Origin: an uncultured Bacteroidales bacterium
GTDB taxonomy: Bacteria > Bacteroidota > Bacteroidia > Bacteroidales > UBA932
Assembly: GCA_944323825.1 (NCBI GenBank)
Contig: CALUTY010000003.1
Coordinates: 1-64,000 of the forward strand
Direction of reading: 5' to 3'
Length of the DNA stretch: 64,000 bases
The position numbers and the translations under genes are program-made. This document shows, one piece after another, positions 9,087-33,274 of the stretch. Under the pieces are notes generated by a model. It made no database searches, had not been told where the DNA came from, and was given only the letters and a program-made list of their open reading frames with translations. Within the stretch, counting starts at the first letter, position 1, and each line of letters opens with the position of its first letter.

Positions 9087-9253
9087 ATTTAAGTTTGTTT
9101 CCCGTAAAATTAGTCAAATAATGGCATATCTATGTCATCCAGCAACTCAGTCTGCAAAGTAACGCATAACATGTCTCATTTTCATATACAACTTCCGATT
9201 AATTCTGGCCGCGCCTCTGAAATTTGACGGCAAAAATTATTTTTTTCAATACT

Positions 9254-9289
9254 TGTATCAACAAATGGCACATCATGGCTGTATCTTTG
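9254..9289 (+). promoter_or_regulatory. Island operator/promoter, AAA ATPase
   Basis: TGTATC, six bases, TGGCACA, nine bases, then a perfect -7 TATCTTTG at 9282-9289. The ATG follows at 9316. It lies in the 229-base divergent region between WYL regulator 2 and this gene. Confidence 0.75.
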
Positions 9290-9315
9290 TGCTGAAATTC
9301 CAAAAGTAGCGCATA

Positions 9316-11004: not shown

Positions 11005-11010
11005 TTCCAA

Positions 11011-12270
11011 TTATTCTGCGGCCTTGAAATTGAATACAGGCCTGATGACATTGACGACATCAACGGTATCGGTGATGTTTGCCATAATTTCCTCTTTCGG
11101 CTTGTAAACCATCGGAGACTCGTCTATTGTGGATTCGGTCACGGTCTCGCTGTAGATTCCTGACATTGAAGTGCGGAAATCCTCCATGGACAGTTGCCTG
11201 AAAGCCTCTGAGCGGCTCATGATTCGTCCGGCACCGTGCGGGGCAGAGCAATTCCAGTCGGGATTGCCTTTTCCCAAGCATATCAGCGAACCGTCACGCA
11301 TATTGAGAGGGATAATGCATTTCTGCCCCTTCTCCGCTGATATAGCCCCTTTGCGGATAAGATTGTCATCGCTGATATAATTATGTACGCTTTCAAACGC
11401 CTCCCCTGCCTCTTCGACAGCGTCGTAACTCCGTAAATGCTCCATTATCATGGCAACAATCATCCTGCGGTTGATGACCGCCCATTCCTGGCACAGGCGC
11501 ATGTCGTGGAGATAGTTGTCCCTGTGGACACCTTCAAGCCAGCACAGGTCCTGCGGAATGGAAGGTTTCTGCATCCTGAATGAATTGTGCAGTTCCCTTA
11601 TGGCATCATGAAGCTCCGCCTTCCTTCCTGCAGCCTTGTATTCCGCTATCATCCTGTTCTGCTCTTCAAGAAGCCTGTCCCAGCCGGACATGTTCTTGAG
11701 GGCCAGTTTCTGATAGATGTCCGCCACCTGCTTGCCGAGATTGCGGCTGCCTGTGTGTACAACAAGGTATGACATCCCATCGGCATCTGTGTCCACCTCA
11801 ATGAAGTGGTTGCCTCCGCCAAGAGAGCCTATTCCGCTGATCACCCGTTTGGAGTCTTTCAGTTCACGGTAGCACACCAGTTCCTTTACAAGGGACTTCG
11901 AGCGGGAATAGTCTTCCATATACTGATGCTTCAGCTGTGCGAAATTCTTGTCCCGCACATTCCTCCCCACAGGGATGTTTTCCGTTATAAATTCATTCAG
12001 CCAATGGAATTGCAATTCTTTCTTTGCCCTGAACGGCTGCACAAGTATGCCGCAGCCGATGTCCACTCCGACTATGTTCGGAATGACCTTGTCACCGAGG
12101 TCACCCGTAAAGCCTATCACGCATCCTGCTCCTGCATGGACATCAGGCATTACCCTGATTCGGCAGCCGCTGAACACGTCTATTGACAGGAGCTTCCTTA
12201 TCTGCTCCATTGCAGCCTCCTCAATGTTGTCGGTGAATATCTTCACGTCGTGGCTCTCTATTATCTTCAT
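11011..12270 (-). CDS. rtcB: RtcB-family RNA ligase
   Basis: Start chosen at the ATG at 12270 (MKIIESHDVKIF). The 419-residue protein has the RtcB motifs: DVHAG (43-47), GVDIGCG with metal-binding Asp70/Cys73, GGGNHFIE (151-158), HTGSRNLG (172-179) and the guanylated histidine in APHGAGR (His345). RtcB joins 2',3'-cyclic phosphate and 5'-OH RNA ends using GTP and Mn2+, and serves RNA repair. All catalytic residues appear present. No RtcA cyclase or RtcR sensor is nearby; control seems to be through the shared island motif (12292-12327). It lies between the AAA ATPase and the metallopeptidase/MoxR/VWA operon. Confidence 0.93.
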   Translation of the reverse strand: MKIIESHDVKIFTDNIEEAAMEQIRKLLSIDVFSGCRIRVMPDVHAGAGCVIGFTGDLGDKVIPNIVGVDIGCGILVQPFRAKKELQFHWLNEFITENIPVGRNVRDKNFAQLKHQYMEDYSRSKSLVKELVCYRELKDSKRVISGIGSLGGGNHFIEVDTDADGMSYLVVHTGSRNLGKQVADIYQKLALKNMSGWDRLLEEQNRMIAEYKAAGRKAELHDAIRELHNSFRMQKPSIPQDLCWLEGVHRDNYLHDMRLCQEWAVINRRMIVAMIMEHLRSYDAVEEAGEAFESVHNYISDDNLIRKGAISAEKGQKCIIPLNMRDGSLICLGKGNPDWNCSAPHGAGRIMSRSEAFRQLSMEDFRTSMSGIYSETVTESTIDESPMVYKPKEEIMANITDTVDVVNVIRPVFNFKAAE

Positions 12271-16021: not shown

Positions 16022-16111
16022 GCCGTAAAATTATTATAAAGTGCCACTAATGGCTTATACGGCCAAATATGGCCACAACGGTTGCAATATCAATGAAAAT
16101 TGGGCAGTATT

Positions 16112-16360
16112 CAGAACTATTTGTTATTTTTGTATGAAATGTGCCAACCGGTGGTGCCCGTATATAACGGACGAACGGCATCAATGACTACAAAACAAGA
16201 TTTTATGCTGTACCCTATCGGAATCCAGAATTTTGAGGACCTCAGAAAAGGAGGTTATATCTATGTGGACAAAACCGAACAGATACACAGGCTTGTATCT
16301 ACGGGCAAATATTATTTCCTGAGCCGTCCCAGGCGCTTCGGGAAGAGTCTGCTCGTGTCC
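16112..16360 (+). repeat. 5' duplicated segment, near-identical to 17856-18104
   Basis: About 249 bases covering the promoter and first 59 codons of the two AAA/DUF1703 genes are identical except for two bases in the leader. Identity ends abruptly (GTGTCCTCG versus GTGTCCACG), after which the genes diverge. The pattern is what recent duplication or gene conversion produces. Confidence 0.85.
16125..16132 (+). promoter_or_regulatory. -7 box of AAA/DUF1703 copy 1
   Basis: TATTTTTG lies 52 bases before the ATG at 16184. The only upstream -33-like element is ATTG, 22 bases away. The same box occurs at 17869-17876 before copy 2, within the duplicated segment. Confidence 0.55.
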
Positions 16361-17752
16361 TCGATAGAGTCATACATGAGCGGACGGAAAGACCTCTTCA
16401 ACGGGTTGGCATTGGAAAAACTGGAGACGGAATGGGCTGCATATCCGGTGCTGCATCTCGACTTGAGCGGGAAGGTTTACAATACGGCTGAAGACCTCGA
16501 TGTCACACTTGATCAGCATCTCTGCAGATGGGAAACATCATACGGAGTGAGTCCCCGTTATCAGCAGCCGGATGCACGGTTCAAGGATGTCATAGACGCA
16601 GCATATGCCGCCACAGGTCATCAGGTCGTGATTCTCATAGACGAATACGACAAGCCTATTATCGACAATCTGGACAATCCGGCACTTCAGGATCATTACC
16701 GCAGCCTGCTGCAGGGATTCTACGGAGTGGTGAAGGCAAAGGACGGTAGCATCCGCCTCGGTTTTCTTACCGGAGTGACCAAAATAGGAAAAATGAGCGT
16801 ATTCAGCGGGCTCAACAACCTTAACGACATTTCAATGGACTCAGAATACTCGGACATCTGCGGCATCAGCGACTTCGACCTGCACAAGTATTTCTCCGAG
16901 TCGGTCAAGGAACTCGCAGAAAGGAACAGTCTGACCGAGGATGAATGCTATTCCAAACTCAAGGAAATGTACGACGGTTACCATTTCAGCGAAGACTCCG
17001 AAGGGATGTACAACCCGTTCAGCCTCCTGAACACGCTCCAAAAAAAGAGATTCAGCGAATACTGGTTCGAGACCGGCACGCCGTCATTCCTCGTCAAGAT
17101 CCTGAAGCAGACAGGGTACGACATAACAAGACTGTCCGAGAATGATGTCGAGATCGACTCCGACATGCTGTCCGGAGTCAATGACTACATCAACAATCCG
17201 ATTCCGCTCCTGTATCAGAGCGGATATCTCACAATCCGGGAGTTTGACCGGATGTTCGGCATATACAGGCTCGGATTCCCAAACATGGAGGTAAAAAAGG
17301 GCTTCACCAAGATGCTCCTGACGGCCTACGCTCCAGTTCCGGAAAAGGAGGGCAATGTCCTGACCGCAAGGCTGTACATGGCCGTCACCTCAGGAAAGCC
17401 CGAAGAGATGATGCGTCTGCTGGAGGGTCTGTTCGCAAGGGCAAACTACCAGATTCAGGGAGATGCCGAGCGCGACTTCCAGTATGCCATGTACCTCATA
17501 TTCGAACTCCTCGGAGAATATGTCCGGACTGAATACCAGACCAGCAACGGCCGCATCGACATCCTACTGCAGACCGACGGCTACATCTACATCATCGAGA
17601 TCAAGACCGACGGCAGCGCCGACGAGGCCCTGGCACAGATTGAGGAGAAAGGCTACGCCAAAGCGTTTGCCGACGACAGCCGCAGGATCTTTAAAATAGG
17701 CGTGAATTTCGACAAGGCATCCCGCAGAATCGAGGAATGGAAAGTCCTGTGA
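16184..17752 (+). CDS. AAA ATPase with C-terminal PD-(D/E)XK nuclease domain (DUF1703), copy 1
   Basis: Start at the ATG at 16184 (MTTKQDFMLYPIGIQNF), which all copies share. The 522-residue protein belongs to the common Bacteroidales 'AAA-ATPase-like plus DUF1703' family. It has a variant P-loop SRPRRFGKS (47-55), Walker B VVILIDEYDKP, a central variable region and a C-terminal PD-(D/E)XK fold with Asp459, Glu472 and Lys474 (GRIDI, IEIK). Family role is unproven; a mobile or defence-related nuclease is often suggested. The first and last parts match copy 2 almost exactly while the middle (residues about 330-410) differs. Confidence 0.88.
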   Translation: MTTKQDFMLYPIGIQNFEDLRKGGYIYVDKTEQIHRLVSTGKYYFLSRPRRFGKSLLVSSIESYMSGRKDLFNGLALEKLETEWAAYPVLHLDLSGKVYNTAEDLDVTLDQHLCRWETSYGVSPRYQQPDARFKDVIDAAYAATGHQVVILIDEYDKPIIDNLDNPALQDHYRSLLQGFYGVVKAKDGSIRLGFLTGVTKIGKMSVFSGLNNLNDISMDSEYSDICGISDFDLHKYFSESVKELAERNSLTEDECYSKLKEMYDGYHFSEDSEGMYNPFSLLNTLQKKRFSEYWFETGTPSFLVKILKQTGYDITRLSENDVEIDSDMLSGVNDYINNPIPLLYQSGYLTIREFDRMFGIYRLGFPNMEVKKGFTKMLLTAYAPVPEKEGNVLTARLYMAVTSGKPEEMMRLLEGLFARANYQIQGDAERDFQYAMYLIFELLGEYVRTEYQTSNGRIDILLQTDGYIYIIEIKTDGSADEALAQIEEKGYAKAFADDSRRIFKIGVNFDKASRRIEEWKVL

Positions 17753-17826: not shown

Positions 17827-17927
17827 TAAAATCAAATGAAAGATGGCATTCCATCCAGAACTATTTGTTATTTTTGTATGAAATGTGCCGACCGGTGGTG
17901 TCCGTATATAACGGACGAACGGCATCA

Positions 17928-19490
17928 ATGACTACAAAACAAGATTTTATGCTGTACCCTATCGGAATCCAGAATTTTGAGGACCTCAGAAAAGGAGGTT
18001 ATATCTATGTGGACAAAACCGAACAGATACACAGGCTTGTATCTACGGGCAAATATTATTTCCTGAGCCGTCCCAGGCGCTTCGGGAAGAGTCTGCTCGT
18101 GTCCACGATAGAGTCGTACATGAGCGGCAGGAAAGACCTTTTCGGAGGGCTTGCATTGGAAAAACTGGAGACGGAATGGGCTGCATATCCGGTGCTGCAT
18201 CTCGACTTGAGCGGAAAGGCGTACAATACTGAAGAGGCTCTCCCGAATGTATTGAATTACCATTTGGAGCAATGGGAGAAGGCATATTCAGCAGAATGTA
18301 TAGACAACAATCCTGAAACACGGTTCAAAAGAATCATAGACGCAGCATACACTGCAACGGGACGCCAGGTCGTGATTCTCATAGACGAATACGACAAGCC
18401 GATTATCGACAATCTGGACAATCCGGCACTTCAGGATTATTACCGCAACATGCTGCAGGGATTCTACGGAGTGATGAAGTCCAAGGACGGAAGCATCCGC
18501 CTCGGTTTTCTGACAGGAGTGACCAAAATCGGAAAACTGAGCGTCTTCAGCGGGCTCAACAACCTCAACGACATTTCAATGGACCCGGAATACTCGGACA
18601 TCTGCGGCATCAGCGGCTCCGACCTGCACAAGTATTTCCCGGAGTCGGTGAAGAACCTTGCGGAAAGGAACAGCCTTACCGAAGATGAATGCTATTCCAG
18701 ACTCAAGGAAATGTACGACGGTTACCATTTCAGCGAGGACTCCGAAGGAATGTACAACCCGTTCAGTCTACTGAGTGCCCTCCAAAAAAAGAGGTTCAGC
18801 GAATACTGGTTTGAGACCGGGACTCCGTCTTTCCTTGTGAAGGTCATGCAACGGACATCATTCGACATCACTGCGCTTTCCGACGAGGAAGTGGATTCAA
18901 CGCTTCTGAGCAGCATAAACACGGTATTCGAAAACCCGATTCCTCTTCTGTATCAGAGCGGATACCTTACCATTACCGGATATGACAGGGAATTCTGTCT
19001 TTACCGGCTGGGATTCCCGAATTCCGAAGTCAAGACTGGTTTTCTGAACTTTATTTTCCAGTATTACATTCCAGGTGAGCCGACATCCGGAATCACACTC
19101 ATTTCAAAACTTGCCCGCTCAACACGTTCTGGCAAGCCAGAAGAGATAATGCGCCTGCTGGAGGGTCTGTTCGCAAGGGCGAACTACCAAATCCAGGGTG
19201 ATGCCGAGCGCGACTTCCAGTATGCCATGTACCTCATATTCGAACTCCTCGGAGAATATGTCCGGACTGAATACCAGACCAGCAACGGCCGCATCGACAT
19301 CCTCCTGCAGACCGAAGGCTACATCTACATCATCGAGATCAAGACCGACGGCAGCGCCGACGAGGCCTTGGCACAGATTGAGGAGAAAGGCTACGCCAAA
19401 GCGTTTGCCGATGACAGCCGCAGGATCTTTAAAATCGGCGTGAATTTCGACAAGGCATCCCGCAGAATCGAGGAATGGAAAGTCCTGTGA
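17928..19490 (+). CDS. AAA ATPase with C-terminal PD-(D/E)XK nuclease domain (DUF1703), copy 2
   Basis: 520 residues, paralogous to copy 1. It has the same N-terminus, the P-loop RRFGKS, the LIDEYD Walker B and the same GRIDI/IEIK nuclease motif. Its middle section (VMQRTSFDITALSDEEVDS and onward) is closer to the truncated copy at 3377 than to copy 1, so the three copies form a mosaic. The promoter segment is duplicated with the gene (-7 box at 17869-17876). It lacks the island operator, which suggests later arrival. Confidence 0.88.
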   Translation: MTTKQDFMLYPIGIQNFEDLRKGGYIYVDKTEQIHRLVSTGKYYFLSRPRRFGKSLLVSTIESYMSGRKDLFGGLALEKLETEWAAYPVLHLDLSGKAYNTEEALPNVLNYHLEQWEKAYSAECIDNNPETRFKRIIDAAYTATGRQVVILIDEYDKPIIDNLDNPALQDYYRNMLQGFYGVMKSKDGSIRLGFLTGVTKIGKLSVFSGLNNLNDISMDPEYSDICGISGSDLHKYFPESVKNLAERNSLTEDECYSRLKEMYDGYHFSEDSEGMYNPFSLLSALQKKRFSEYWFETGTPSFLVKVMQRTSFDITALSDEEVDSTLLSSINTVFENPIPLLYQSGYLTITGYDREFCLYRLGFPNSEVKTGFLNFIFQYYIPGEPTSGITLISKLARSTRSGKPEEIMRLLEGLFARANYQIQGDAERDFQYAMYLIFELLGEYVRTEYQTSNGRIDILLQTEGYIYIIEIKTDGSADEALAQIEEKGYAKAFADDSRRIFKIGVNFDKASRRIEEWKVL

Positions 19491-21096: not shown

Positions 21097-23160
21097 TCAA
21101 CGAAATGACAAGTCATCCAAAACTTCATTCAGGGAATGTATCAATTTAGTTTTCCGTTGAACCTGATACTTTGCCTTGATATAGTTTATCTCATCTGCCA
21201 TAACCCGTTTAGGATATCTTACTTTTCCTGAAAGTGATTTCATCCGATAATTGACAAAATGGGTTATCATTTCTTTAAGGTTCAATCTCTGTGGAACACC
21301 ATCCGCTAAAGCAGCATTATTGATGCAGATTCTCCTCTTCAAATGTGTCTTATCATATATTTCCTTAATTGTTGCTGACAGATTTGACGATTTGTCAACA
21401 ACCACCGCAAAGCCCTGATTCAGGGAATTTTTATAAGAATAGTGCGCTTCTTTGACACCGATTATGGAATTTGTGGCAACAATAAAATCAAGTTCCTTCT
21501 CGATTTCATAAAAATCTGCCATATATGGAGTAGAGAAATGAAGACAGATGCCGTCGTCATTGCAATAAGGACTCTCATCAACTGACACATCAGCATAAAT
21601 GTCCACATATCCATATCCGTTCCTGTAAATTTTCCGAAGCTCCTTTGTTTCAATCATACCTCCTGTCGGAAAATCAGGTCCTTTGATATAAGTCATCAGC
21701 CTTTTTATTGAAATCTTGGGATTGACAAGATAAGCCAACACCGCATCACAGACTTCTGCAATATTATGCGGCGCAAACAATATATAAGGCTCATTCACAT
21801 AACCGTTAACCAACAAAATTGGAATTTTGTAGGGCAATACTCTGGAGAACTCCTGACAAGCAATCTTTTTATTGTCAAGATTGTCATAAGGCTCTACGAC
21901 ATCTTTGGCAAAATCGCTCAAATTTATACTTGTATATAGCATATAGGCCGGACAGTCCCCTTGCAGAGAGCCGAAATTTCCATGATATCCCAACATCGGA
22001 TATGGTAATCTCCATTCTGCGGCAAGTCTGATGATTTCATCATAGCAGACATCACCTAAAGGGTGCTTCGTAGCATAATCCACAATTTCAGCATAAGGGA
22101 CATCAACATCAATCCGTCTGTTTATCGCACATCCTACCACATAAGCCGTCCACACTATTCCCGGTGCATTAAGCATATCAGCATCAGTAAGCAGTTTTAC
22201 GGTATTGAGGAGAGTCCTTTGCCTTGAAGTAAGACCGTCCGCAATATCAGGGAGCATTTCTTCGATAATCATTTTATAACCCTGTTTGTCAAAGTCCTTA
22301 TGCATTAAGTCCGGAGTCCGACAAGGCGGCATAACGAAACGCAATTCAGAAGGAAGGAACTTGAGAGGAACGTCAGCACACTCACCGTTTTTATGCTTGG
22401 CGATGATGAGGTCAGTCCTGCCGGCTTCAGCTGAAGGGACTGCGTTCAAACCAAAGGCATCATAATAACCTATGTTGTCGTAACGATGTATCAAAAGTAC
22501 CATATCTGCATACTGCCCGATAGCTTCGGGAGCTCCCCGAAGGTCACTCAACTGCGGGCGACTGTTTCTGCCCTGCCTTTTCACGGCGGGACGGCTAAGT
22601 TGCGACAGAGCAATGACCGGCACATCCATTTCCTCTGCTGTAGCTTTCAAAGTCTTTAATATGAAAGTGATTTCCTGTTCTCGCATTTTTCTCAATTCAG
22701 CTGGCCCTTGCATAAGCTGAAGATAGTTAACTATTACAAGGCGGACACCTTTCTGCTCCACAAGTCTTTTGACCTTGGAGCGGAATTCCAGCACAGGGAG
22801 TGAAGGAGTATCATCTATGTACAAGGGAGCCCCGGATAAATATTTGGTCTTCTCCTCTATTAGCTTCCATTCGTTTCTTTCCAGTTTTTGACCTCCCTTG
22901 ATTTTGTCTATTGACAGGCCGGTTTCTGGAACCATCATTCGTTTCGCCAGCTGAACGGCAGTGGTTTCAAGAGAGAAAAACGCCACCGGTATCCGGTAGT
23001 CCACAGCGGCATTTCTTGCCACTGTCAAGACAAACGATGTCTTTCCTACATACGGACGCGCCGCCACAACGATAAGGTCGGAAGGCTGCCAGCCTCCAGT
23101 AATCTTATCCAAAGAAGGGAACCCCGACGGAACTCCACTGTTCTGCAAATTATCAGTCAT
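21097..23160 (-). CDS. Fusion of DnaB helicase domain and GyrA-type topoisomerase domain
   Basis: 687 residues. Residues 1 to about 280 are the RecA-like C-terminal domain of replicative helicase DnaB: ARPYVGKT (34-41), FFSLETT, Walker B region VRLVIVNYLQLM, RPQLSDLRGAPEAIGQYADMV and IIAKHKNGE. The Walker B aspartate is replaced by Asn145. From about 296 the sequence follows the GyrA/ParC breakage-reunion domain: LPDIADGLTSRQRTLL, HPLGD (366-370), YHGNFGSLQGD, active-site-like Tyr409 in MLYTS, IKGPDFPTGG (492-501) and LNLKEMI near the end. Arg before the tyrosine is Leu408. There is no GyrA C-terminal wheel and no GyrB partner in the window. I know of no described protein with this layout. 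Mini-dnaE lies immediately upstream in the same direction. Confidence 0.85.
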   Translation of the reverse strand: MTDNLQNSGVPSGFPSLDKITGGWQPSDLIVVAARPYVGKTSFVLTVARNAAVDYRIPVAFFSLETTAVQLAKRMMVPETGLSIDKIKGGQKLERNEWKLIEEKTKYLSGAPLYIDDTPSLPVLEFRSKVKRLVEQKGVRLVIVNYLQLMQGPAELRKMREQEITFILKTLKATAEEMDVPVIALSQLSRPAVKRQGRNSRPQLSDLRGAPEAIGQYADMVLLIHRYDNIGYYDAFGLNAVPSAEAGRTDLIIAKHKNGECADVPLKFLPSELRFVMPPCRTPDLMHKDFDKQGYKMIIEEMLPDIADGLTSRQRTLLNTVKLLTDADMLNAPGIVWTAYVVGCAINRRIDVDVPYAEIVDYATKHPLGDVCYDEIIRLAAEWRLPYPMLGYHGNFGSLQGDCPAYMLYTSINLSDFAKDVVEPYDNLDNKKIACQEFSRVLPYKIPILLVNGYVNEPYILFAPHNIAEVCDAVLAYLVNPKISIKRLMTYIKGPDFPTGGMIETKELRKIYRNGYGYVDIYADVSVDESPYCNDDGICLHFSTPYMADFYEIEKELDFIVATNSIIGVKEAHYSYKNSLNQGFAVVVDKSSNLSATIKEIYDKTHLKRRICINNAALADGVPQRLNLKEMITHFVNYRMKSLSGKVRYPKRVMADEINYIKAKYQVQRKTKLIHSLNEVLDDLSFR

Positions 23161-23317: not shown

Positions 23318-24394
23318 TTATTTCCTCCAGTATTTCTGATATACCTCCGGGAAATGAACTTTGAGATAAGCACATACATAGCCCAAGTATGCAGAGCCGA
23401 CTGAATGGGCTTTGCAGAACATCATCCAGCCTTTCCTCCCACTAACATATTCATTCCAAAATGTGTTCAACTCGCCAGTTTCGTAGCCCCTCTCGATACC
23501 TCCTTCAATAAATTGAGGCAACAACATAGTCAATATATCAGTTTTATGTTTTCCTGCCGCCTTTCTAAGCCGATCCGACCACTCCGCGGTAAAACCTGCC
23601 ACTTTCTGCACTATCAGCATCAATTGCTCCTGATACAAAACAAGTCCGTATGTTTCGCCCAGAATATCGGAAAGATTGTCCAACGGATATTCCGGAGCTG
23701 CTTTTCCGGTCGAACGGGAAATATATTCCGGCAACATATCGTCCGGGCCCGGACGACACATGGCATCCAATGCCACAAGCTGACTGAATCGGGAAGGCCT
23801 GACTTCCTTCAAGGCTTTCTGGAATACTTCCTCCATCCCGCTGTATCCGAATCCAGGCAAACCTCCCGTATCTCCTGTCGCCAACATGGCGTAAGTGGCT
23901 TTGTCATCGAGCGGTATGTCCTTATAATCGAGACCTTCTTTGCATGAAATTTCTCTCAACCGGTCCAGGTAGTCCTGTTTGAAAAACCTCACATAATATG
24001 GACTAAGCCCTGGCTCCAATTCACGTTCCATCAGGTTATTTACATACTCTGCTCCACAGCTGTCCACATCTATGTCAATATTCATATATTTTGAGGGGCC
24101 ATGGGACAGCATTCTTTCTGCCAGAAGCCCAAACTGCAATGGATCTATATCGGTAATTCCAAGGAAATAGCACACAAGAGATCCGGGGGCCTGGCCGCGT
24201 CCGGGACCGGCTATACCTCTCCTTTTTCTGATAGAATCCAAAATATCTGCCAACTGCAGCAGATGTCCGGCCGAGCCGATATTCCTGATCCGCTCAAGTT
24301 CATACTTCAGACGGTTCTTATGGGCAGCATCACTACAACCCTTCCCGTACATTGCAAACTTTGTCCTGAGTTCCAACAATTCATCTGATGTCAT
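23318..24394 (-). CDS. Miniature DnaE-like DNA polymerase III alpha
   Basis: Start at the ATG at 24394. Only 358 residues against about 1,100 for DnaE; the PHP domain, the OB fold and tau-binding end are missing. What remains follows the C-family palm and fingers: RLKYELERIRNIG, GIAGPGRGQAPGSLVCYFLGITDIDPL (60-85), the catalytic-Asp region NIDIDVD (105-111), IPLDD, ALDAMCRPGPDDMLPEYI, ETYGLVLYQEQLM (247-259) and KAHSVGSAYLGYVCAYLK. A segment of roughly 150 residues between the first aspartates and IPLDD is collapsed. Whether it polymerises DNA is doubtful; it may bind primer-template. It has its own island promoter. Confidence 0.8.
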   Translation of the reverse strand: MTSDELLELRTKFAMYGKGCSDAAHKNRLKYELERIRNIGSAGHLLQLADILDSIRKRRGIAGPGRGQAPGSLVCYFLGITDIDPLQFGLLAERMLSHGPSKYMNIDIDVDSCGAEYVNNLMERELEPGLSPYYVRFFKQDYLDRLREISCKEGLDYKDIPLDDKATYAMLATGDTGGLPGFGYSGMEEVFQKALKEVRPSRFSQLVALDAMCRPGPDDMLPEYISRSTGKAAPEYPLDNLSDILGETYGLVLYQEQLMLIVQKVAGFTAEWSDRLRKAAGKHKTDILTMLLPQFIEGGIERGYETGELNTFWNEYVSGRKGWMMFCKAHSVGSAYLGYVCAYLKVHFPEVYQKYWRK

Positions 24395-24416
24395 AAAAGT
24401 CTTTTTTAATCCAGGA

Positions 24417-24452
24417 CAAAAATAAAAGCCACCTGTGCCATAATGCGACACA
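24417..24452 (-). promoter_or_regulatory. Island operator/promoter, mini-dnaE
   Basis: Minus strand: TGTGTC, six bases, TGGCACA, nine bases, then the perfect -7 TATTTTTG. The operator also sits inside a perfect 10-base stem GCCACCTGTG / CACAGGTGGC (24428-24458). Leader of about 20 bases to the ATG. Confidence 0.8.
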
Positions 24453-24731: not shown

Positions 24732-26552
24732 TTAATTATGCTTATACGAAGCATCCAAAATTTTAATCATTTCTTTCCTGTGCTCCTTTGCCAAATTTTC
24801 AGTCCATTCATTCTCATTACCACCAGCAACTTGAAACATTTTGTACATTTTTATGCTTTCGAGGTTGCCGGAATTTATCTGGTCTGAAATTCTGGCAAAC
24901 TTGACTCCGACGGAATCGTTGCCCTGTGTTGAATTGAAACTTGAAGATATCAATGCAAGATTACCGAATGAATTGCGGAGAACGTTGCTATCATCATTCC
25001 ATTTCTTTATCTGCTTTGAATCTTCCCGAGGGTACAGATGTTCAATAGATCTGTTGGTTCTGAATGTGTAACTGCTTATTGCAGAATCAGGTCTGCCCTC
25101 ATCCATATTTTTCTCCCAAAGATAATAGTCAAGCCTCCAAAACCAGTACCGGCTTACTTTTCCGTATGAAAGATTATCCGGACGTATTTCATCTTTTACA
25201 GTATTGACTTCGTTTTCAATCAATGAAAATGGATGAATTATATTGTCATCAATTCTTTTTATCTCCGTCAACAAGTCTGTCTCAGAAACAGTCTGCCAAT
25301 TTGTTTTCAGATATTTCAGAATCGGCTTTAACCAAAGGTAATAAGATGTTGACACATACAACATGGACTGATACTGAATCAGTTTTTTTCTATCCGGAAT
25401 ATTAGCGTCCTCCAAACTGTCGGATTCTGTCTTGAATTCCATACCGTATGAGTTATTCGTTTCACTTTTTTGGATACGTATAATGAAGCAATCAAACAAA
25501 ATCCTATAAGTTATCAGTTCTTCGTAAAAATCGTGAATTTCATCACCAGATGACTTCAATAAACATTCAAATCTTTCTAGAAGTTTGTCTGTTCGAAAGA
25601 ATTCTGAATTACCTTCATTCTCTAGGCCGCGCTGCTCTTTATAGAGGGTCAATACCAGCAACAGGAATTCCGGGAAAGGTATTATGCTCTTTTCTTCGTC
25701 AACTGCATAATAATGTTCAGGACGCGTATTGCTTATCTGAACAGATTTGATAGAATCTTGCTTGTCAGTTCTTGTATCAGGCTTGTTCTTATCAAAAAAA
25801 CTCTCAATCACTTTATCTATACCGCATGAAAACATTGATTTAACTTTATCAGAATCAATAAGCGACTTGTCCATTTGCGACACAAGATTCCATATACGCA
25901 CACAGCGGCTTTGTTTGTCGGCATTTGCGTTTTTCAACAATTTAACCTTCAATATCTCATGATTTTCAAGCCCTTTTCCTGCCGAATTCATCGTCTCGAA
26001 ATATTTGTTCAAATCATTGGCTCCATATTTTTCGGGCAATTCAGACAAAAAGAATGTAAGATTCTCTTTGATATTTTCTATAAAGGAATTTTTGTCTGCT
26101 TTATCGAACTCGCTGACATAATTTCTTATATTTTCCAGAGCATCCTGCATCTTCCTGTTGACATAACCGGAAGGAAGAGCATCCGGAGCCTCAACCAGAT
26201 GCCTCAAATATTCTGAATCATCTTTCCTCGCAAAAAGAGACAGCCTAAATTCTTTTTCACCGATTAAATCTTTCCAGCCGAAAGCAATCGCCATAAGCAT
26301 AATTACGGTAAACCGCTGCTGACCATCCACCAAGTCATACTTATCTTTCTCGGTTTCATTTTTATGCTTTGTCACAGTAAACATACCGATGTAATATGGC
26401 TTGTGCGGATTTTTGTAAAAATGCTCATTCAAATCGTTCAACAACCCTATTACCTGCTCCTCACCCCATTCAAAAAGACGCTGATACAAAGGGATTGAAA
26501 AATAAACTGAGGAAGCAGCAAGCTCCTTCAATGTATATCTATTCTTATTCAT
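24732..26552 (-). CDS. DUF262/DUF1524 protein (GmrSD-like)
   Basis: 606 residues. The N-terminal DUF262 (ParB/GmrS-like) domain has FSIPLYQRLFEW (about 18-29) and the nucleotide-binding signature DLVDGQQRFTVIML (about 75-88). The C-terminal DUF1524 HNH-like nuclease region has RSIEHLYPRED and NSFGNLALISSSFN. GmrSD enzymes are type IV restriction systems that cut DNA with glucosylated hydroxymethylcytosine; substrate here is unknown. It overlaps the partner gene upstream by 8 bases. It belongs to the operon driven from 28491-28526. Confidence 0.85.
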   Translation of the reverse strand: MNKNRYTLKELAASSVYFSIPLYQRLFEWGEEQVIGLLNDLNEHFYKNPHKPYYIGMFTVTKHKNETEKDKYDLVDGQQRFTVIMLMAIAFGWKDLIGEKEFRLSLFARKDDSEYLRHLVEAPDALPSGYVNRKMQDALENIRNYVSEFDKADKNSFIENIKENLTFFLSELPEKYGANDLNKYFETMNSAGKGLENHEILKVKLLKNANADKQSRCVRIWNLVSQMDKSLIDSDKVKSMFSCGIDKVIESFFDKNKPDTRTDKQDSIKSVQISNTRPEHYYAVDEEKSIIPFPEFLLLVLTLYKEQRGLENEGNSEFFRTDKLLERFECLLKSSGDEIHDFYEELITYRILFDCFIIRIQKSETNNSYGMEFKTESDSLEDANIPDRKKLIQYQSMLYVSTSYYLWLKPILKYLKTNWQTVSETDLLTEIKRIDDNIIHPFSLIENEVNTVKDEIRPDNLSYGKVSRYWFWRLDYYLWEKNMDEGRPDSAISSYTFRTNRSIEHLYPREDSKQIKKWNDDSNVLRNSFGNLALISSSFNSTQGNDSVGVKFARISDQINSGNLESIKMYKMFQVAGGNENEWTENLAKEHRKEMIKILDASYKHN

Positions 26553-28314
26553 AGCTTGATATGATATTTTTTATTGATTCAACAGTACATCCGTTCAAGA
26601 CATTTTCATACATTGCATCAAAATGCTTGCGGTATCTTTTCTGAATTGGGCCAAGCGCATCATCTTCTATATGTCCCTGCCTGGAAATGCTGTCCTTTAG
26701 CTCTGCCAAGAAAAAAGTGGGAGAGGTAGCCTGGTCCAACATCAAGACAATTTCAGATTCATTGGCGTATGACAGAATCGAATCAAGCCGAACCCTTCCA
26801 TTCGAATAACGGTGGAAGGATATTCTGCCCGCAATGCACAGCAGTGCTTCAGAAAGATATTGGCTCCCGAATTTCAGATAATATCCGAAAAGCATCGAGT
26901 CGATGACATCTCTGTATTTCCAATGCGATTCTCCACTAAAATTATTTGCCAATGCCTTATGCTCATCTGTGGATTGATACATCTTGAACAATCGCATGAA
27001 ATGCTCTGAATATGCAAAAAAATGCGCACCTCCCTGTATGGATTCATAAAAGTCAAATTTTTCTCCAAATGGAGGCACCTCCTGCAATACTGGAGCAGCC
27101 TCAAATTCATCCCTGACGCGATATGGCGCATTTTCATTCCAATTACGTTTTTTCATCCATTTGCGAAGACGATACAGATAAAGTCCAAGAGTAATTTTCA
27201 TGTCTGATTCACTTTCATACCCTGCTCCTACCAGCATATCCCATCTGGAAGCTATATGGCATGCTTGTTTTTCTTCACCGATATATCTGAGATGATGAGC
27301 TTTAAGCAGATTATAATCAGAAAGGGGTATTCCTTTGGTGTTTTGGTTCGAGAAGAATGTATAAGCCAAGTCCAATGAACCTCCAGTCAATTTCAAAACA
27401 GAAAACTGCAACTTGTCATACATAAGGCGGATTATTTCCTTTCGTCTTGAATCACTTAATGTTGAAATATATCCATTAATCAGATATTTGTTATAGGCTA
27501 TATATGCAACTGCTGCGTCCGATTCAAAAACGGCATCAGCCAAAGAAAAACAATTTTCTTCTTCGCCCAAAGCAAGAAGAATCAATGTCAAAGTGACAAG
27601 CCTCTGCTGTCCGTCAACAATGTCCCATGCATCATTCTGGTTTTGTCTGTACAGGATTATGTTTCCCAAGTGATATGGCTTTGCCTCTGTCAATTCCGAT
27701 ATGTCGGTCCACAATCTATACACATTTCGTTCTTCCCAACAATATGTGCGCTGATAATCAGGTATTCTCAAATAAAACTTATTTTTGGCAAAAAGTTCAC
27801 GAAGAGTCTTTGCACTCTCAAGTTCGACTTCTTCAATATGTTCATCTGCATCATTTACAGCCATTCTTGATTGTGCCTCAGCAGCATCCATAGCGTCACG
27901 AGAATTTGCTTTATCCGCACAAGGGTTTGCAGATTTCTCTTCTATATTAGTTTGTGTTTCAAAATCTGATATGACCGGTTCAATTTTATCGCGTATTGCC
28001 AAAAAAGCATTATATAGTTCCTGTTCAGAAGAAATATCATGGTCTAGCACCCAGCTGCAGTCATTCCTGTTCCAATGAACTGATTGGATTTCAGAATCCT
28101 TCAAATGGGCCTTAAGCCATTCTCGTACCGGACGATAATTATCACCTTCAATATGCAGCTGCACTCTTCCTTTATGAAATTCATAATGTAAATTTGAGCC
28201 AAGACAGGTTCCTGACTGAATGAAACAGTACGACTGCGCCCATTTCGTAATTTTACCAGGGAAATGTTCCTGGGCAAATTTTTCAAAAGTTTCTTTATTT
28301 GTTAAAGTAGGCAT
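26545..28314 (-). CDS. DUF262 protein with extra N-terminal domain
   Basis: 589 residues. Residues 1-110 resemble the DUF4268-type domain often linked to restriction-like proteins (KFAQEHFPGKITKWAQ, then HYEFHKGRVQLHIEGD). DUF262 follows: LRIPDYQRTYCWEERN (about 180-195) and DIVDGQQRLVTLTLIL, then SNQNTKGIPLSDYNLLKAHHLR. I see no clear HNH core near its end, so the downstream protein may supply the nuclease. Paired DUF262 genes of this kind are typical of Bacteroidales defence islands. Overlap with the next gene indicates a tight operon. Confidence 0.82.
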   Translation of the reverse strand: MPTLTNKETFEKFAQEHFPGKITKWAQSYCFIQSGTCLGSNLHYEFHKGRVQLHIEGDNYRPVREWLKAHLKDSEIQSVHWNRNDCSWVLDHDISSEQELYNAFLAIRDKIEPVISDFETQTNIEEKSANPCADKANSRDAMDAAEAQSRMAVNDADEHIEEVELESAKTLRELFAKNKFYLRIPDYQRTYCWEERNVYRLWTDISELTEAKPYHLGNIILYRQNQNDAWDIVDGQQRLVTLTLILLALGEEENCFSLADAVFESDAAVAYIAYNKYLINGYISTLSDSRRKEIIRLMYDKLQFSVLKLTGGSLDLAYTFFSNQNTKGIPLSDYNLLKAHHLRYIGEEKQACHIASRWDMLVGAGYESESDMKITLGLYLYRLRKWMKKRNWNENAPYRVRDEFEAAPVLQEVPPFGEKFDFYESIQGGAHFFAYSEHFMRLFKMYQSTDEHKALANNFSGESHWKYRDVIDSMLFGYYLKFGSQYLSEALLCIAGRISFHRYSNGRVRLDSILSYANESEIVLMLDQATSPTFFLAELKDSISRQGHIEDDALGPIQKRYRKHFDAMYENVLNGCTVESIKNIISSYE

Positions 28315-28546: not shown

Positions 28547-29587
28547 TCACTGCATTTTGTTCAGCAGAAGGACTGCCCTGATCTCCCTGCCGCATCCGGT
28601 GTCGCAAACAGTACCTGTGCGGATATCTTCATACCCGAAAAAATTCCTGACTTCAGTCCAGAATCCAGAAAGGGCAGGATGTCCGACCGGATATTCAGGG
28701 GAATAGAATATGCCGACCACGGCATTGTCATATTGCGCCAAGTCCAGACTCTGGTATTTTGTGATGGAGTCCAGGATATAGTCCAGCCTCATGTCATGAT
28801 CTGTTTCCATTTTTTCTTCTGTTGGCTTTTTTTTCACACTTTCCATGGTGTCTGAAACGGACTCCCACGGCCCTGTCACTGAACGATAGTCATACCTCAT
28901 TCCATATTTGACTTCAAGGATGAAATCAAGGTCTCTGCGGACGAAAGTGCTATTACCTTCCATAAGGTCGAGGATGTTGTTTTCCCTCCGGCTCATTGAT
29001 TTCAGGTATTTCTTACGTGTTTCCTGTCGATGCTCTCTCATCCTCTTGGGCCTATTCAAGCCTTTTCTGTACAAGTCCTTTTTTACCCAACCCCAACCGG
29101 TCAATCTCATCCCATCATGCTTCGAGCGATATTTTCTTGGTGTCTGATGACGCCATTCGCTCTCTTCAAGCCGGTCCAACAGAATGTCATACCGGTTTCT
29201 TTTTTCCGCACCGAGCATATCATCGAATGTCTTGGTTATCTCGTTAGGAGAAAATCCGTAAAAAGTCATTTCCCACAGACATTTTGCGGCAATCTCCTCT
29301 GTGGACAGATTGACATTTTCTCCGATGACTATCCTCTTGGCAAGGGCATCTTCCCAGATGTCTCCGTCAAGGTGAAAAACTCCAATCCATTGATTATTCC
29401 CGTATGCCTCTCCGCTCCACCTGACCATGGCTTCGCCCTCAAAGTCCGCTGACGGTTCCATATTTCTGAGAATGTCATATGCCTCCCGAAAGCCATATAT
29501 GGTATTAGCATAATGTTTACCGTAGGATTTCAGATAAGGAATAAGACTATCGAAATCTACTTTGTCTAAAAGTTCTTTAAGCGTCAT
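28547..29587 (-). CDS. Uncharacterised 346-residue protein
   Basis: Soluble, mixed charge, no signal. The start (MTLKELLDKVDFDSLIPYL, then FREAYDILRNMEP) reminds me of an uncharacterised Bacteroidales family annotated DUF6557, from memory and with low certainty. A basic central stretch (RKGLNRPKRMREHRQETRKK) could bind nucleic acid. It is 46 bases downstream of the RNA methyltransferase gene and shares its promoter, so an RNA-linked role is possible. No catalytic motif found. Confidence 0.6.
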   Translation of the reverse strand: MTLKELLDKVDFDSLIPYLKSYGKHYANTIYGFREAYDILRNMEPSADFEGEAMVRWSGEAYGNNQWIGVFHLDGDIWEDALAKRIVIGENVNLSTEEIAAKCLWEMTFYGFSPNEITKTFDDMLGAEKRNRYDILLDRLEESEWRHQTPRKYRSKHDGMRLTGWGWVKKDLYRKGLNRPKRMREHRQETRKKYLKSMSRRENNILDLMEGNSTFVRRDLDFILEVKYGMRYDYRSVTGPWESVSDTMESVKKKPTEEKMETDHDMRLDYILDSITKYQSLDLAQYDNAVVGIFYSPEYPVGHPALSGFWTEVRNFFGYEDIRTGTVCDTGCGREIRAVLLLNKMQ

Positions 29588-29633: not shown

Positions 29634-30131
29634 TTACAAACCGAACCCGCCCCTTTTCAGCAGCCTGTCATATATTACAATCGACCCGGCTACAGAGACA
29701 TTCAATGAAGCCTCACCCGGTATCTGCACAATATCGTCGCAAGTGGCAATCACTTCCGGAGGCAGGCCGAAATCCTCAGCTCCGAGCAGATACACTGCCC
29801 GTTCCGGATGAGAATATGTGGCCAACGGCACGCTCTGTTCATCCAGTTCAATTCCGACAAGCTTCGATCCTTTCGGCAGGCTGGAACGGAATGTCTCATA
29901 ATCCGGATACTCGAAAAGCGGAACATGTCTCCAGCTCTTGCGCGTGTCTGTTATCATATTCTCGTACCGTTTCCCTATGATGAACATGAAATCTGCACCG
30001 AGGATATGAGCTGTACGCCATAATGTCCCTATGTTCTTGGTCACTTTCGGACAATGGATTCCGATGCCGAAATAGCCCCTTCCGTGCTGAGGTACAACCA
30101 CATTCGGATAGATTTTCTTTAATGATTCCAT
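29634..30131 (-). CDS. SpoU/TrmH-family RNA 2'-O-methyltransferase
   Basis: 165 residues, a bare SPOUT catalytic domain. It has motif 1 KNIGTLWRTAHILGAD, motif 2 YLLGAEDFGLPPEV and motif 3 IPGEASLNVSVAGSIVIYD, which form the trefoil-knot SAM site. No N-terminal RNA-binding domain is present, so it is shorter than TrmH or RlmB. Members methylate ribose in tRNA or rRNA; the target here is unknown. The island operator lies directly upstream, linking it to rtcB and the exonuclease as a possible RNA-repair set (inference). Confidence 0.88.
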   Translation of the reverse strand: MESLKKIYPNVVVPQHGRGYFGIGIHCPKVTKNIGTLWRTAHILGADFMFIIGKRYENMITDTRKSWRHVPLFEYPDYETFRSSLPKGSKLVGIELDEQSVPLATYSHPERAVYLLGAEDFGLPPEVIATCDDIVQIPGEASLNVSVAGSIVIYDRLLKRGGFGL

Positions 30132-30313: not shown

Positions 30314-31519
30314 TCAGTATAACATCCCGAACATCCACAATGGTAGCCTGTTCATGCTCCCCACTTCTATGTCATCCACGGCGAGATAGCTGTCCGGAAG
30401 ACCGGCTATCTGACTGAAATTCTTGGAACTCCCTCCTACTTCGAATGTATATTTTCCGTCTACAAGGAAATCTCCCTGTTTAGGCAGCATAAGACTGGCT
30501 GCAGCTCTGACCTGGTTTGCAAAGAATGTCTCGCGTGCTGTCCCTTCCGAAATTTTCCCAGACAAGGCATACATCAGGTTGACATTGTCAAGATATATCT
30601 TTTTCGGTCCGGTCAGATGCTTGTAATCCTTAATCTTGTCCGTCAGAAGCTGCAGCAGAGCAGCCCGATCCAAAAGATACAGCATTTTCAGCGTCTGGTC
30701 ACGCGTGGATTCGAGTTGGGAGGCAAGCTTATTTATATTGGGTTCAAAAGGCACATTCTCGGCTATGACCATCAGAAGTTTCTTTATCTTCTGCGTAGTA
30801 GCGTATGTAATATCTTCTGCCGAAGGAATGTCGCTTTCTATGACCAGCCGTGCAACTTCCCCGATCCGTATCAGATAGTCCTCTCCGGCCTCCTTGTAGT
30901 ATGGATAGAAACCGTGTCGCAGATACTCATTAAAGTGCTTAAGTATCTTTGTCTTCGATATTATTTCCATTGCATATCCGGTGTGATTTGCAAGCAGCGC
31001 TTCCAATTCAATTGGCGGCACAACCCTAATACCTTCATATTCAAGATATTCCCTAAACGAGAGTCCATTGAGAGTATGGAGAGACTGCCTTCTGGACAAA
31101 TCTGCTACAGAATTGTCAATCGCAAGCATAGCCGAACCGGTATAGACGATGTTCAGATCCGGATAATTGTCATAGAAATTCTTGAGCGCCATAGTCCAGC
31201 CCCTGAATCTGTGCACTTCATCGAAATATATGTTGCATACACCTCTGGAATACAGGAATTCGACAAGCTCTTCAAGATTGTGGCTGTTGAACCACAGGTT
31301 GTCAAGGGAGACATAGAATGCATCGTCTACATTGCTGAATGTTTCCTTGATATGCTGCATAAGCATAGTCGTCTTGCCGACGCCGCGTGCACCTTTTATC
31401 CCTATAAGCCTCATATCCCAGTCAATCTTGTCATAAAGATACCGCTTGAACCGCAAGTCGGTAGCAACGAGTTTTCTGTGATAGGCGTTCAATAATGGTT
31501 GTATATCAGAGTACTCCAT
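30314..31519 (-). CDS. AAA_14/DUF4143 ATPase
   Basis: Start placed at the ATG at 31519 (MEYSDIQPLL) because the in-frame extension upstream crosses the promoter and operator palindromes. 401 residues: P-loop GARGVGKTT (about 43-51), Walker B IYFDEVHRFRGW, GSAMLAID sensor region and the C-terminal DUF4143 restriction-like fold with FEVGGSSKN. This family is widespread, mobile and functionally unresolved. It has its own palindromic operators rather than the island motif, and probably entered independently. Confidence 0.88.
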   Translation of the reverse strand: MEYSDIQPLLNAYHRKLVATDLRFKRYLYDKIDWDMRLIGIKGARGVGKTTMLMQHIKETFSNVDDAFYVSLDNLWFNSHNLEELVEFLYSRGVCNIYFDEVHRFRGWTMALKNFYDNYPDLNIVYTGSAMLAIDNSVADLSRRQSLHTLNGLSFREYLEYEGIRVVPPIELEALLANHTGYAMEIISKTKILKHFNEYLRHGFYPYYKEAGEDYLIRIGEVARLVIESDIPSAEDITYATTQKIKKLLMVIAENVPFEPNINKLASQLESTRDQTLKMLYLLDRAALLQLLTDKIKDYKHLTGPKKIYLDNVNLMYALSGKISEGTARETFFANQVRAAASLMLPKQGDFLVDGKYTFEVGGSSKNFSQIAGLPDSYLAVDDIEVGSMNRLPLWMFGMLY

Positions 31520-31564
31520 AATGCAACTTGTCTTGTTAACCGTAAAAAACTTCTGATTCTGTTG

Positions 31565-31628
31565 CAAATATAGTAAAAACACTTTTCGAAAGGTGATTTT
31601 TATCCATTTTTTCACTTTTCCAAAAGTG
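31565..31628 (-). promoter_or_regulatory. Promoter and twin palindromic operators of the DUF4143 ATPase
   Basis: Minus strand -7 box TATATTTG (31565-31572). Two 16-base palindromic sites follow upstream: CACTTTTCGAAAGGTG (31580-31595) and CACTTTTCCAAAAGTG (31613-31628). I infer that such sites serve autorepression. Confidence 0.65.
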
Positions 31629-31686
31629 CCATTAGTTTGACGCTGCTTATACTGAAATTTTGATATAAATTTTAGAAATGATATGC

Positions 31687-31722
31687 TATGCCTTGTTTTA
31701 GCATATCCCCGCTTTTTATTTG
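31687..31722 (+). promoter_or_regulatory. Island operator/promoter, first WGDG/LRR gene
   Basis: TATGCC, six bases, TAGCATA, nine bases, then TTTATTTG as the -7. Standard spacing; the ATG is at 31742. Confidence 0.7.
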
Positions 31723-31741
31723 CAAAAAATGACAGAAAATC

Positions 31742-33274
31742 ATGGGAAAGATAAGAATGACAGTACAAGCGGATTCACATCCTGAGTACGGAAACATCGC
31801 CGACTTCCGGCTGATGCTCAATGGTGGCTTCTGCACAGTCAGTTGGGGTGACGGCACAACCACGACACACCATGCCGAAGGAGAAGAACAGCATATAAGG
31901 CATACATACCCGAAAGAATGCCTGGAAACAGAACAGACATTTGTTATCACTATTTCTTCCGATGAGGACAATATTGTCGGCATAAGTATAAATGATGAAT
32001 TTACCTATATGGATGTCAAGGACATCGACATCAGCGGATGCCAGTCTCTGCTGTATTTCGCAGCGGGTCGTATTGAGCACTTTGACATCACGGCAAATCC
32101 CGGAATCAGGGAAGTGGAACTTAAATCCGAAGCATGCTGGACTGCAGATTTCTCCAACAGTCGGGAACTCAAAAAATTATCACTGAATTCAGCATTCTTG
32201 GGAGCACCATATGATGACATCCTCGCAAGGATCGATTTGTCAAAATGCTGTAAACTTGAAATTCTTACCTGCATGCATAATCTTTATATGGAAATAGTGT
32301 TACCGAAACATTCGGCCTTAAAAGAATTTGTATATTCAGAGACGGATTTCCCAAGAAGTTCCATGAGAAAAATAGTCAGAACCATAGAACAAAACAAAGG
32401 GAGAATCAAAAGGCACAGGCGAGATAGCTTTGTCTTCAGAGGAAATTTCGGGCAACTCGCACGGGAGTCTTTCATGCCTCTCAAACAAAGTTTCTCAGAC
32501 ACCGTAAATCCTGTTCCGCAACAGATAAAGATGACTGTCGGGACATGGGGAAACGATAAATTTACCGGATACGCCGGGAATGTCAATGTCTTGCTTGACG
32601 GAGGTTCGTGTCATATCGACTGGGGTGACGGACACGCATCTGAACTCTATGCAAACGGGACGGAATTGCTTTACGGGCTGCATGTATATTCCCCGAAATG
32701 CACAAGCCGGCAGATAACAATAACTTCAGATAAGGAAAATATCATTGGAATAATTGCCGATGACGACAATTCCATATATGCACACATTGAAGCCATCGAC
32801 ATCAGCGGATGCCAGTCTCTTAAATACTTCGGAACAACATCAGACAATTTTGACATCAGCACCAATCCCGGAATAAAGGCGATAGACCTTGTGCAAATGC
32901 GTTGTCCATCACTGAATTTTTCCAATAGCAATGAGCTTGAAAGCCTTTTTATCCAATCCTGCTTGGGCGGCAGAGAAAAGGTGCAGCAACTTGACCTGAC
33001 AAAATGCAACAAACTGGAATATCTGGCTTGTTACTGCAATTCAGACCTGACAGACATATCGGTAAGCGATGATTCTGCCCTGATGACACTTATATACGAA
33101 ATGACTCCGCTCAGCGATTCGTCTTTGGACAGGCTCAGAAAGGTCATAAACCGCAACGGAGGGGAAATCAGAAAACTGGAGACGGAGGGATCTTCTCTCA
33201 CCAAGTTTATATATGACATCGAAACATCTGCAACGGAATCAAGGACAGAAGACACTGAAACTAAAAATGAATAA
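31742..33274 (+). CDS. Intracellular WGDG/leucine-rich repeat protein A1
   Basis: 510 residues without a signal peptide. Two tandem modules each contain a PKD-like strand motif with WGDG (CTVSWGDGTTTTHH at 32-45; CHIDWGDGHASELY in the second) and then irregular leucine-rich repeats of the form IDISGCQSL-YF, IDLSKCCKLE and LDLTKCNKLEYLAC. WGDG motifs are usually found in secreted BspA-like proteins, so an internal version is unusual. Nearly the same gene occurs at 34625. Likely a binding or sensing protein; target unknown. Confidence 0.7.
   Translation: MGKIRMTVQADSHPEYGNIADFRLMLNGGFCTVSWGDGTTTTHHAEGEEQHIRHTYPKECLETEQTFVITISSDEDNIVGISINDEFTYMDVKDIDISGCQSLLYFAAGRIEHFDITANPGIREVELKSEACWTADFSNSRELKKLSLNSAFLGAPYDDILARIDLSKCCKLEILTCMHNLYMEIVLPKHSALKEFVYSETDFPRSSMRKIVRTIEQNKGRIKRHRRDSFVFRGNFGQLARESFMPLKQSFSDTVNPVPQQIKMTVGTWGNDKFTGYAGNVNVLLDGGSCHIDWGDGHASELYANGTELLYGLHVYSPKCTSRQITITSDKENIIGIIADDDNSIYAHIEAIDISGCQSLKYFGTTSDNFDISTNPGIKAIDLVQMRCPSLNFSNSNELESLFIQSCLGGREKVQQLDLTKCNKLEYLACYCNSDLTDISVSDDSALMTLIYEMTPLSDSSLDRLRKVINRNGGEIRKLETEGSSLTKFIYDIETSATESRTEDTETKNE

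Follow-up and report, generated by a model that had tools for sequence, protein, structure and literature searches.

It has been reported that ImuB, a catalytically dead Y-family polymerase and partner of DnaE2, is kept within a complex (available text of PMC12926913), and that the GmrSD/DUF262 type IV restriction proteins have neighbours enriched in replication and repair genes (available text of PMC4619093). Here we describe a locus that recalls both systems, in a 64,000-nucleotide stretch of DNA from an uncultured Bacteroidales bacterium (positions 1 to 64,000 of contig CALUTY010000003.1, assembly GCA_944323825.1; hereafter the window). Two consecutive genes on the minus strand encode copies of three different replisome subunits, all of them gutted: a fusion of 687 amino acids (aa), in which a copy of the DnaB motor domain is followed by a GyrA core (21097-23160), and a DnaE copy of 377 aa (23318-24451), which is preceded by two DUF262 genes. 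With ImuB the locus shares the retention of a dead polymerase relative, in the case of ImuB as part of a complex; however, another polymerase family is involved, ImuB has no dead DnaB or GyrA partner, and no ImuA, ImuB or DnaE2 was seen beside the window's genes. As for the GmrSD/DUF262 proteins, both upstream genes carry GmrSD_N above the curated cut-off (102.8 and 102.5 bits against 33.2) and one of them also GmrSD_C, but here two different DUF262 proteins stand in tandem and are followed by replisome copies, and the available text of PMC4619093 contains no gutted DnaE/DnaB/GyrA set.

We suggest, with a probability of about 0.4, that the fusion and the DnaE copy bind rather than catalyse: they would be decoys of the replisome without catalytic activity, in an island of the defence type. 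The copies have lost catalytic residues or whole modules but keep recognisable cores; their lengths are held, at 358-380 aa in the DnaE-type protein clusters P0121-P0125 and 413-426 aa in the GyrA-type clusters P0001-P0005; folds are predicted for both the DnaE copy and the GyrA part; and, where measurement was possible, DnaE and DnaB copies are held under selection as stripped forms, with ratios of nonsynonymous to synonymous substitution rates (dN/dS) of 0.14-0.34. It is known that phages inhibit or hijack host replication proteins. The kept cores of DnaE, DnaB and GyrA would bind something that normally binds the working versions, and the bound attacker would be titrated away from the working replisome. 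The ligand could be a protein with which a phage or mobile element inhibits or hijacks the replisome, the simplest option given the DUF262 (GmrSD-like) neighbours, and offered here as a guess.

The frame of the fusion is uninterrupted and starts with ATG, and Pfam recognised DnaB_C at residues 9-275 (E = 1.3e-74) and DNA_topoisoIV at residues 366-676 (E = 5.5e-38). A preliminary description of this DNA, made from the sequence alone, had proposed a DnaB motor and a GyrA core in one 687-aa frame; the open reading frame, the Pfam domains and the presence in the translation of the motifs that it quoted bear this out. The same genome (G000; 2.79 Mb, 99% complete) also encodes a normal DnaB (contig C10), 70% identical to residues 3-276 of the fusion, a normal GyrA (C5), 37% identical to its GyrA part, and another A-type subunit that is probably ParC (C14), with 27% identity to the GyrA part, so that the fusion is an extra copy. 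An assembly join at about 22300, which the preliminary description had named as a possible artefact, was ruled out, since the junction is spanned by P0006, a 443-aa protein listed without a source, which represents a cluster of 67 sequences and departs from the window's sequence at residues 78, 209, 442 and 443. No second full-length 687-aa fusion was seen among the relatives found. An unfused DnaB-like protein, P0203 (292 aa, 34 contigs), is 88% identical to the window's and its final residues diverge at the junction, in a way that would be consistent with a one-base frame difference and a stop codon overlapping the ATG that opens the GyrA part. The GyrA-like proteins P0001-P0005 stand alone and are 50-51% identical to the window's GyrA part, while the other matches to this part, among the 120 listed of 4323, are of GyrA type with 29-34% identity. 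As the relatives of the GyrA part are proteins of their own and the nearest DnaB-like relative without a fusion ends at the junction, the fusion points to a late event between neighbouring genes rather than to a built motor-cleavage enzyme; it looks recent, and two neighbouring genes probably merged into one in the window's lineage.

Compared with the replicative DnaB, the DnaB-like part (residues 1-290, 22291-23160; this and all other parts of the fusion lie on the minus strand) is 70% identical to the motor of the genome's own enzyme and keeps Walker A (ARPYVGKT, residues 34-41, 23038-23061), including its Lys and Thr. By contrast, the N-terminal domain is not in the fusion, which begins at the linker/motor boundary; Asn145 replaces the Walker B Asp (22726-22728); Lys257 replaces an Arg (AKHRNG to AKHKNG, 22390-22392), which we take from the DnaB literature to be the Arg finger; and a GyrA core is attached. 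Some extra residues precede the AKHKNG motif when the part is aligned with the genome's own DnaB. Five DnaB copies were compared, of which those of the window and P0006 are near-identical. The Arg-finger Arg is gone from all five: Lys takes its place in the window, P0006 and P0203, and the copies of two further genomes, G207 and G340, have no Arg there either. At the Walker B position, Asn is found in the window and P0006 only, and Asp in the genome's own DnaB, P0203 and the G207 and G340 copies. The latter two (456 and 438 aa; fetched loci L118 2303-3673 and L119 1491-2807) carry a C-terminal extension of about 150 residues without Pfam match where the window has the GyrA core.

The GyrA-like part (residues 291-687, 21097-22290) keeps the tower fold and the Tyr position of the GyrA breakage-reunion domain (Tyr409, 21934-21936) but has lost the GIAVGMAT loop, the coiled coil/C-gate, the C-terminal domain and the Arg that precedes the Tyr, and its winged-helix region appears degenerate. 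The Arg is replaced by Leu408 (21937-21939), and Leu is found here in all six family members compared. Identity to the genome's own GyrA is 31-37%, depending on the alignment. When the columns at least 95% identical across 27 GyrA-type rows were considered (n = 138), 70 were gone from all six stripped GyrA copies and 45 were kept in all six; among those lost are the columns of the Arg, of the GIAVGMAT loop and of the coiled-coil region; the Tyr is retained. The coiled coil, gone in 6/6, corresponds to the C-gate dimer region between the LNLKEMI and the RKTKLIHS segments. Four HPHG columns are alignment-ambiguous, one alignment pairing them with HPLGD of the window. The idea of a sponge for quinolone drugs was set aside, the segment after HPLGD having a one-residue gap at what we take to be the quinolone-site Ser position of GyrA.

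The GyrA part was folded alone with AlphaFold; a whole-fusion alignment was dropped, as the aligner had placed GyrA rows on the DnaB part. The model gave a mean predicted local distance difference test score (pLDDT) of 72.7 and a predicted template modelling score of 0.76, and the tower fold is present, mostly with pLDDT of 85-98. All 50 Foldseek matches listed are gyrase or type IIA topoisomerase structures, the best with E = 3.8e-22; they align with template modelling (TM) scores of 0.52-0.65 on the query and root-mean-square deviations of 8.5-11 Å, values that support the fold family but not the detailed arrangement. Structure prediction, proposed in the preliminary description as a check on both halves, was thus applied to this half only and agrees with it on domain identity, not on overall arrangement. 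Alignment with the genome's own DnaB and GyrA confirmed the two substitutions singled out in that description, Asn145 and Leu408, and its suspicion of an altered activity was well founded, key residues or modules being gone from both halves. A single frame in which Walker A and Tyr409 are intact would suit an active chimeric enzyme, such as the helicase-powered nickase also considered there or a protein that attaches covalently to DNA; but on the GyrA side the coiled coil, the GIAVGMAT loop and the Arg that precedes the Tyr are lost, on the DnaB side the Arg finger and the Walker B Asp, other modules are missing from both parts and the relatives are unfused, which makes this reading very improbable. 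The other option raised there, a mimic of replication proteins, is in line with the decoy reading; the adjoining gutted DnaE and the DUF262 pair, which were not reported there, change the interpretation.

The neighbouring gene keeps from DNA polymerase III alpha a piece of the palm and the fingers, with 40% identity over the fingers, but differs from it in the absence of the PHP domain, of a palm/thumb stretch and of the third catalytic Asp, and in ending just after the fingers. Pfam accordingly recognised DNA_pol3_alpha and DNA_pol3_finger only. In the palm/thumb, about 40 residues stand for about 230 in the genome's own DnaE, so that roughly 190 (net) are gone, and the first two catalytic Asp are retained. 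The third is absent from 6/6 copies: it is replaced by Asn in G044 and in contig C98 of G310, by Cys in G207, and by Arg in the window and P0124, and it falls in a gap in P0125; the alignment around this residue is loose for the short copies, and G340 shares that stretch with G207. None of the six aligned copies continues past about residue 880 of the 1225 of the genome's own DnaE. The relatives P0121-P0125 are 99, 90, 84, 79 and 38% identical to the window's copy. Its model has a pLDDT of 83.1, and the significant Foldseek matches are C-family polymerases. A second DnaE copy of the same genome, at the edge of contig C24, is 73-76% identical to the window's over its N-terminal part only and adjoins a piece of 271 aa with 65% identity to a DUF262 gene B, the second gene of a DUF262 pair, of G310.

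Among the regions with which these subunits join the replisome are the clamp/tau region of DnaE, the N-terminal domain of DnaB and the C-gate of GyrA. All three regions are missing from the copies, so that co-assembly or poisoning is less likely than titration. The stripped DnaB and GyrA cores could instead be dominant-negative subunits, which would join the working subunits of a phage or of the host, poison them and slow replication on infection; the retention of the RecA-type motor domain of DnaB and of the GyrA tower together with the loss of catalytic residues is what would be expected of them. However, most of the assembly contacts have gone, the GyrA copy being without the coiled-coil/C-gate and the DnaB copy without the N-terminal domain, while the DnaE copies stop before the part with the clamp and tau contacts, and we regard this possibility as rather unlikely.

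To describe the selection acting on the copies, stripped forms were compared with each other, and the constraint measured therefore acts on the stripped forms themselves. The DnaB copies of G207 and G340 gave a dN/dS of 0.22 (dS 0.29, 433 codons) and their DnaE copies 0.25, with only 29 changes; the DnaE copies of G207 and G310 gave 0.14 (dS 2.1), and the DnaE copies of the window and of contig C24 0.34 (163 codons). Between the GyrA parts of the window and G310, which are 51% identical, dS is saturated and dN is 0.41.

As regards the genomic context, the DnaE copy is directly preceded by DUF262 gene B (GmrSD_N and GmrSD_C, 24732-26552), this by the overlapping DUF262 gene A (GmrSD_N and DUF7834, 26545-28314), and the pair by a DUF6557 protein (28547-29587; all three on the minus strand), which anchors the island and is 61-91% identical to those of G310, G207 and G340. 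In PADLOC 2.0.0, both DUF262 neighbours gave matches to HEC-06/Orf5/SspE profiles, which lie mostly in the N-terminal part of each. Stripped DnaE, DnaB or GyrA copies are also present in four further genomes of the genus, as well as in metagenome clusters. In G310, contig C106 carries a stripped GyrA copy (95% identical to P0001 and truncated at its start, where the contig ends), then DUF6557 and what is left of a DnaB copy, 23 residues; C98 a DUF262 pair and, after it, a DnaE copy of 520 aa in which PHP is present and the palm broken; and C88 a DUF6557 gene, a 256-aa gene, a DUF262 pair, a remnant of a short DnaE copy and then a transposase, which we read as IS21-like. In G000 and G310 together, the six DUF262 matches make up three pairs, and a DnaE copy or remnant comes after every one of them. 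Nineteen tandem pairs were counted by eye from the coordinates in 129 family genomes, and the 16 outside G000 and G310 were fetched together with four single-gene DUF262 loci. In two of these 16 (G207 and G340) the order is DUF6557, a 256-aa gene, DUF262 A, DUF262 B, a DnaE copy of 739 aa with PHP, broken palm and fingers, and the DnaB copy; in G340, about 0.8 kb with the N-terminal remnant of a short DnaE copy lie between gene B and the DnaE copy, and such a remnant follows the DUF262 pair directly both here and in C88 of G310. No DnaE, DnaB or GyrA match was found at the other 14 pairs and the four single-gene loci, where, among the pairs, the contig of L123 stops right behind the pair and only 2-3 kb downstream were read at L125 and L129. 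A further DnaE copy, on contig C27 of G044, was found with the 739-aa copy as query, and so independently of DUF262, among 125 genomes of the genus. Overall, a DUF262 pair or fragment is found upstream at six of the seven DnaE-copy loci (the window, C24, C98, C88, G207 and G340, not G044), or at 4/5 once the two loci found through DUF262 are set aside, and DUF6557 at four of the seven (the window, C88, G207 and G340).

The DUF262 pair or fragment that lies upstream on the same strand at 6/7 of these loci could indicate that the copies serve the adjoining GmrSD-like pair as accessory recognition parts, and either guide the nuclease to foreign DNA during its replication or gate it. Nevertheless, a DnaE copy or remnant lies downstream of only five of the 19 tandem pairs, or 2/16 without G000 and G310 (with the restricted reading at L123, L125 and L129 given above), and the pairs change while the DnaE copy stays: between G207 and G340 the DUF6557 proteins are 87% and the 256-aa genes 95% identical, and in the slot between these and the DnaE copy the DUF262 pairs appear to move. 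Such swapping within a shared slot argues for a shared island and against a dedicated one-to-one partnership and, together with the G044 copy that stands without a pair, makes an accessory role quite unlikely. Tandem arrangements in which a DUF262 gene of about 540-700 aa is followed by a different one of 600-900 aa are seen in the window and at L108, L109 and L116-L131, mostly without replisome copies, and look like a self-contained defence unit.

Several observations weigh against the decoy reading. Between G207 and G340 the DnaE copies are 98.5% identical but the members of the adjoining DUF262 pairs only 29 and 28%, suggesting that the copies are not tightly tuned to one pair, and no DUF262 gene lies near the G044 copy in the 20 kb read. 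Not all catalytic elements are broken: Walker A is intact in the DnaB copy, the Walker B Asp persists in three DnaB copies and the GyrA copies keep their catalytic Tyr despite the other losses. In the model of the GyrA part, the former active-site/winged-helix stretch (model residues 46-127, bar residue 91) has a pLDDT below 50. The window's DnaB part can be compared with the genome's own DnaB only, and there dS is saturated, so that this comparison gives no direct measure of selection. The gutted copies are rare in the genomes searched, and PADLOC 2.0.0 returned no family for either the fusion or the DnaE copy. The long DnaE copies (739, 520 and about 770 aa; L118 3693-5912, L119 2895-5114, L109 9257-10819 and L148 about 8891-11203), three of which were aligned, keep apparent PHP metal-site residues, according to a motif taken from the available text of PMC12926913, and have broken polymerase residues. 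Finally, signs of decay are visible in P0006, which ends early in the GyrA part (at residue 443), in P0203, where a stretch compared with the window resembles compensated frame changes, and in G310, where one DnaE and one DnaB copy are reduced to short remnants.

Two alternatives draw on these last points. If the copies were hitch-hiking debris, that is, functionless pieces of degenerating replication genes caught in a recombination hot spot, then the G310 remnants, the truncated P0006, the disturbed frame of P0203 and the swapping of cassettes in the islands would all be expected, and the decay visible in them keeps this explanation alive. On the other hand, the dN/dS values between stripped copies, the lengths that stay stable at identities down to 38-50%, the long open frames and the confident fold of the DnaE copy speak for maintenance, and we consider debris unlikely. 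The PHP residues of the long DnaE copies, beside a broken polymerase, could instead point to a PHP-nuclease or other enzymatic role that was lost in the window's lineage; since the window's copy and P0121-P0125 have no PHP domain and yet are maintained, this is highly improbable. The combination of an apparently kept PHP site with a broken polymerase is the opposite of what has been reported for many C-family polymerases, in which PHP is inactivated.

Genomes, phages, plasmids, viral contigs and the literature were searched for such copies. For GyrA-type copies, one genome besides the window's own (G310) was found at E ≤ 1e-60 in overlapping draws of 398 family and 400 genus genomes, and none at E ≤ 1e-55 in 393 genomes of the order; window-like DnaE copies at E ≤ 1e-60 were found in no genome of 398 but the window's own. 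These counts are lower bounds, because the E limit misses diverged copies (those of G044, G207, G310 and G340 were unmatched there). Long DnaE copies were sought in the 125 genus genomes at E ≤ 1e-90; matches occurred in 60, and a continuous short copy in G044 only (1/125). The seven other matches in frames below 1100 aa are ordinary DnaE, 63-84% identical to the genome's own, six being cut by contig ends and one by a frame break. Two further scans of genome contigs gave nothing close. A phage or plasmid origin of the GyrA part was also considered and rejected, as phages and plasmids gave only matches below 60% identity, 33% or less among the matches listed. Scans of viral contigs with P0002 and with the 739-aa DnaE copy confirmed no match, and a scan with the GyrA family alignment gave 49 loci of 24-33% identity, in the range of ordinary GyrA. 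For DnaE, phages and plasmids gave matches below 60%, those listed being annotated as DnaE or polymerase, or unannotated. A literature search restricted to open-licence papers, judged from titles and the starts of abstracts and therefore weak evidence, found no report on sets of dead DnaE, DnaB and GyrA copies. A survey of bacterial polymerases removed strongly diverged or truncated sequences before its trees were built (available text of PMC12926913).

The set of dead DnaE, DnaB and GyrA copies thus fits no described system that we found, and the novelty rests on this module rather than on the fusion alone. We tentatively propose, with slightly less assurance than for the decoy reading itself, an undescribed strategy of bacterial immunity, in which mobile copies of DnaE, DnaB and GyrA, all catalytically dead and in some cases fused, would act as replisome decoys or as bait for the phage proteins that attack replication, in islands whose DUF262 nuclease pairs can be swapped. 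Decoy domains exist in plant immune receptors; if the copies are decoys, they would be bacterial counterparts of these, and the parts that they have kept would mark the surfaces bound by attackers. The genes also call for caution in annotation, as they score strongly as helicase, gyrase and polymerase and yet are without residues that this work requires.

Some other genes of the window have relatives near the copies elsewhere. An AAA ATPase of 562 aa in the same island (9316-11004, plus strand) is 87% identical to one beside the G207 copies, and AAA_14 ATPases are found near DnaE copies both in the window (30314-31768, minus strand) and in C98 of G310 (L109 10983-12239, plus strand). The tandem genes at 16100-17752 and 17865-19490 (plus strand) are alike by eye, and the first matches AAA-ATPase_like/PDDEXK_9, as does a gene of a G310 island (L091 8164-9816). 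Between 11011 and 15580 (minus strand), genes for a MoxR-type AAA protein, a DUF2201 VWA-like protein, a 257-aa protein and RtcB follow one another close to WYL regulators; the G310 island likewise has MoxR-type and VWA-like genes, beside a 252-aa gene. Finally, a 165-aa SpoU methylase-domain protein (29634-30131, minus strand) matches only the later part of the RlmB profile and is possibly another shortened housekeeping relative in the island.

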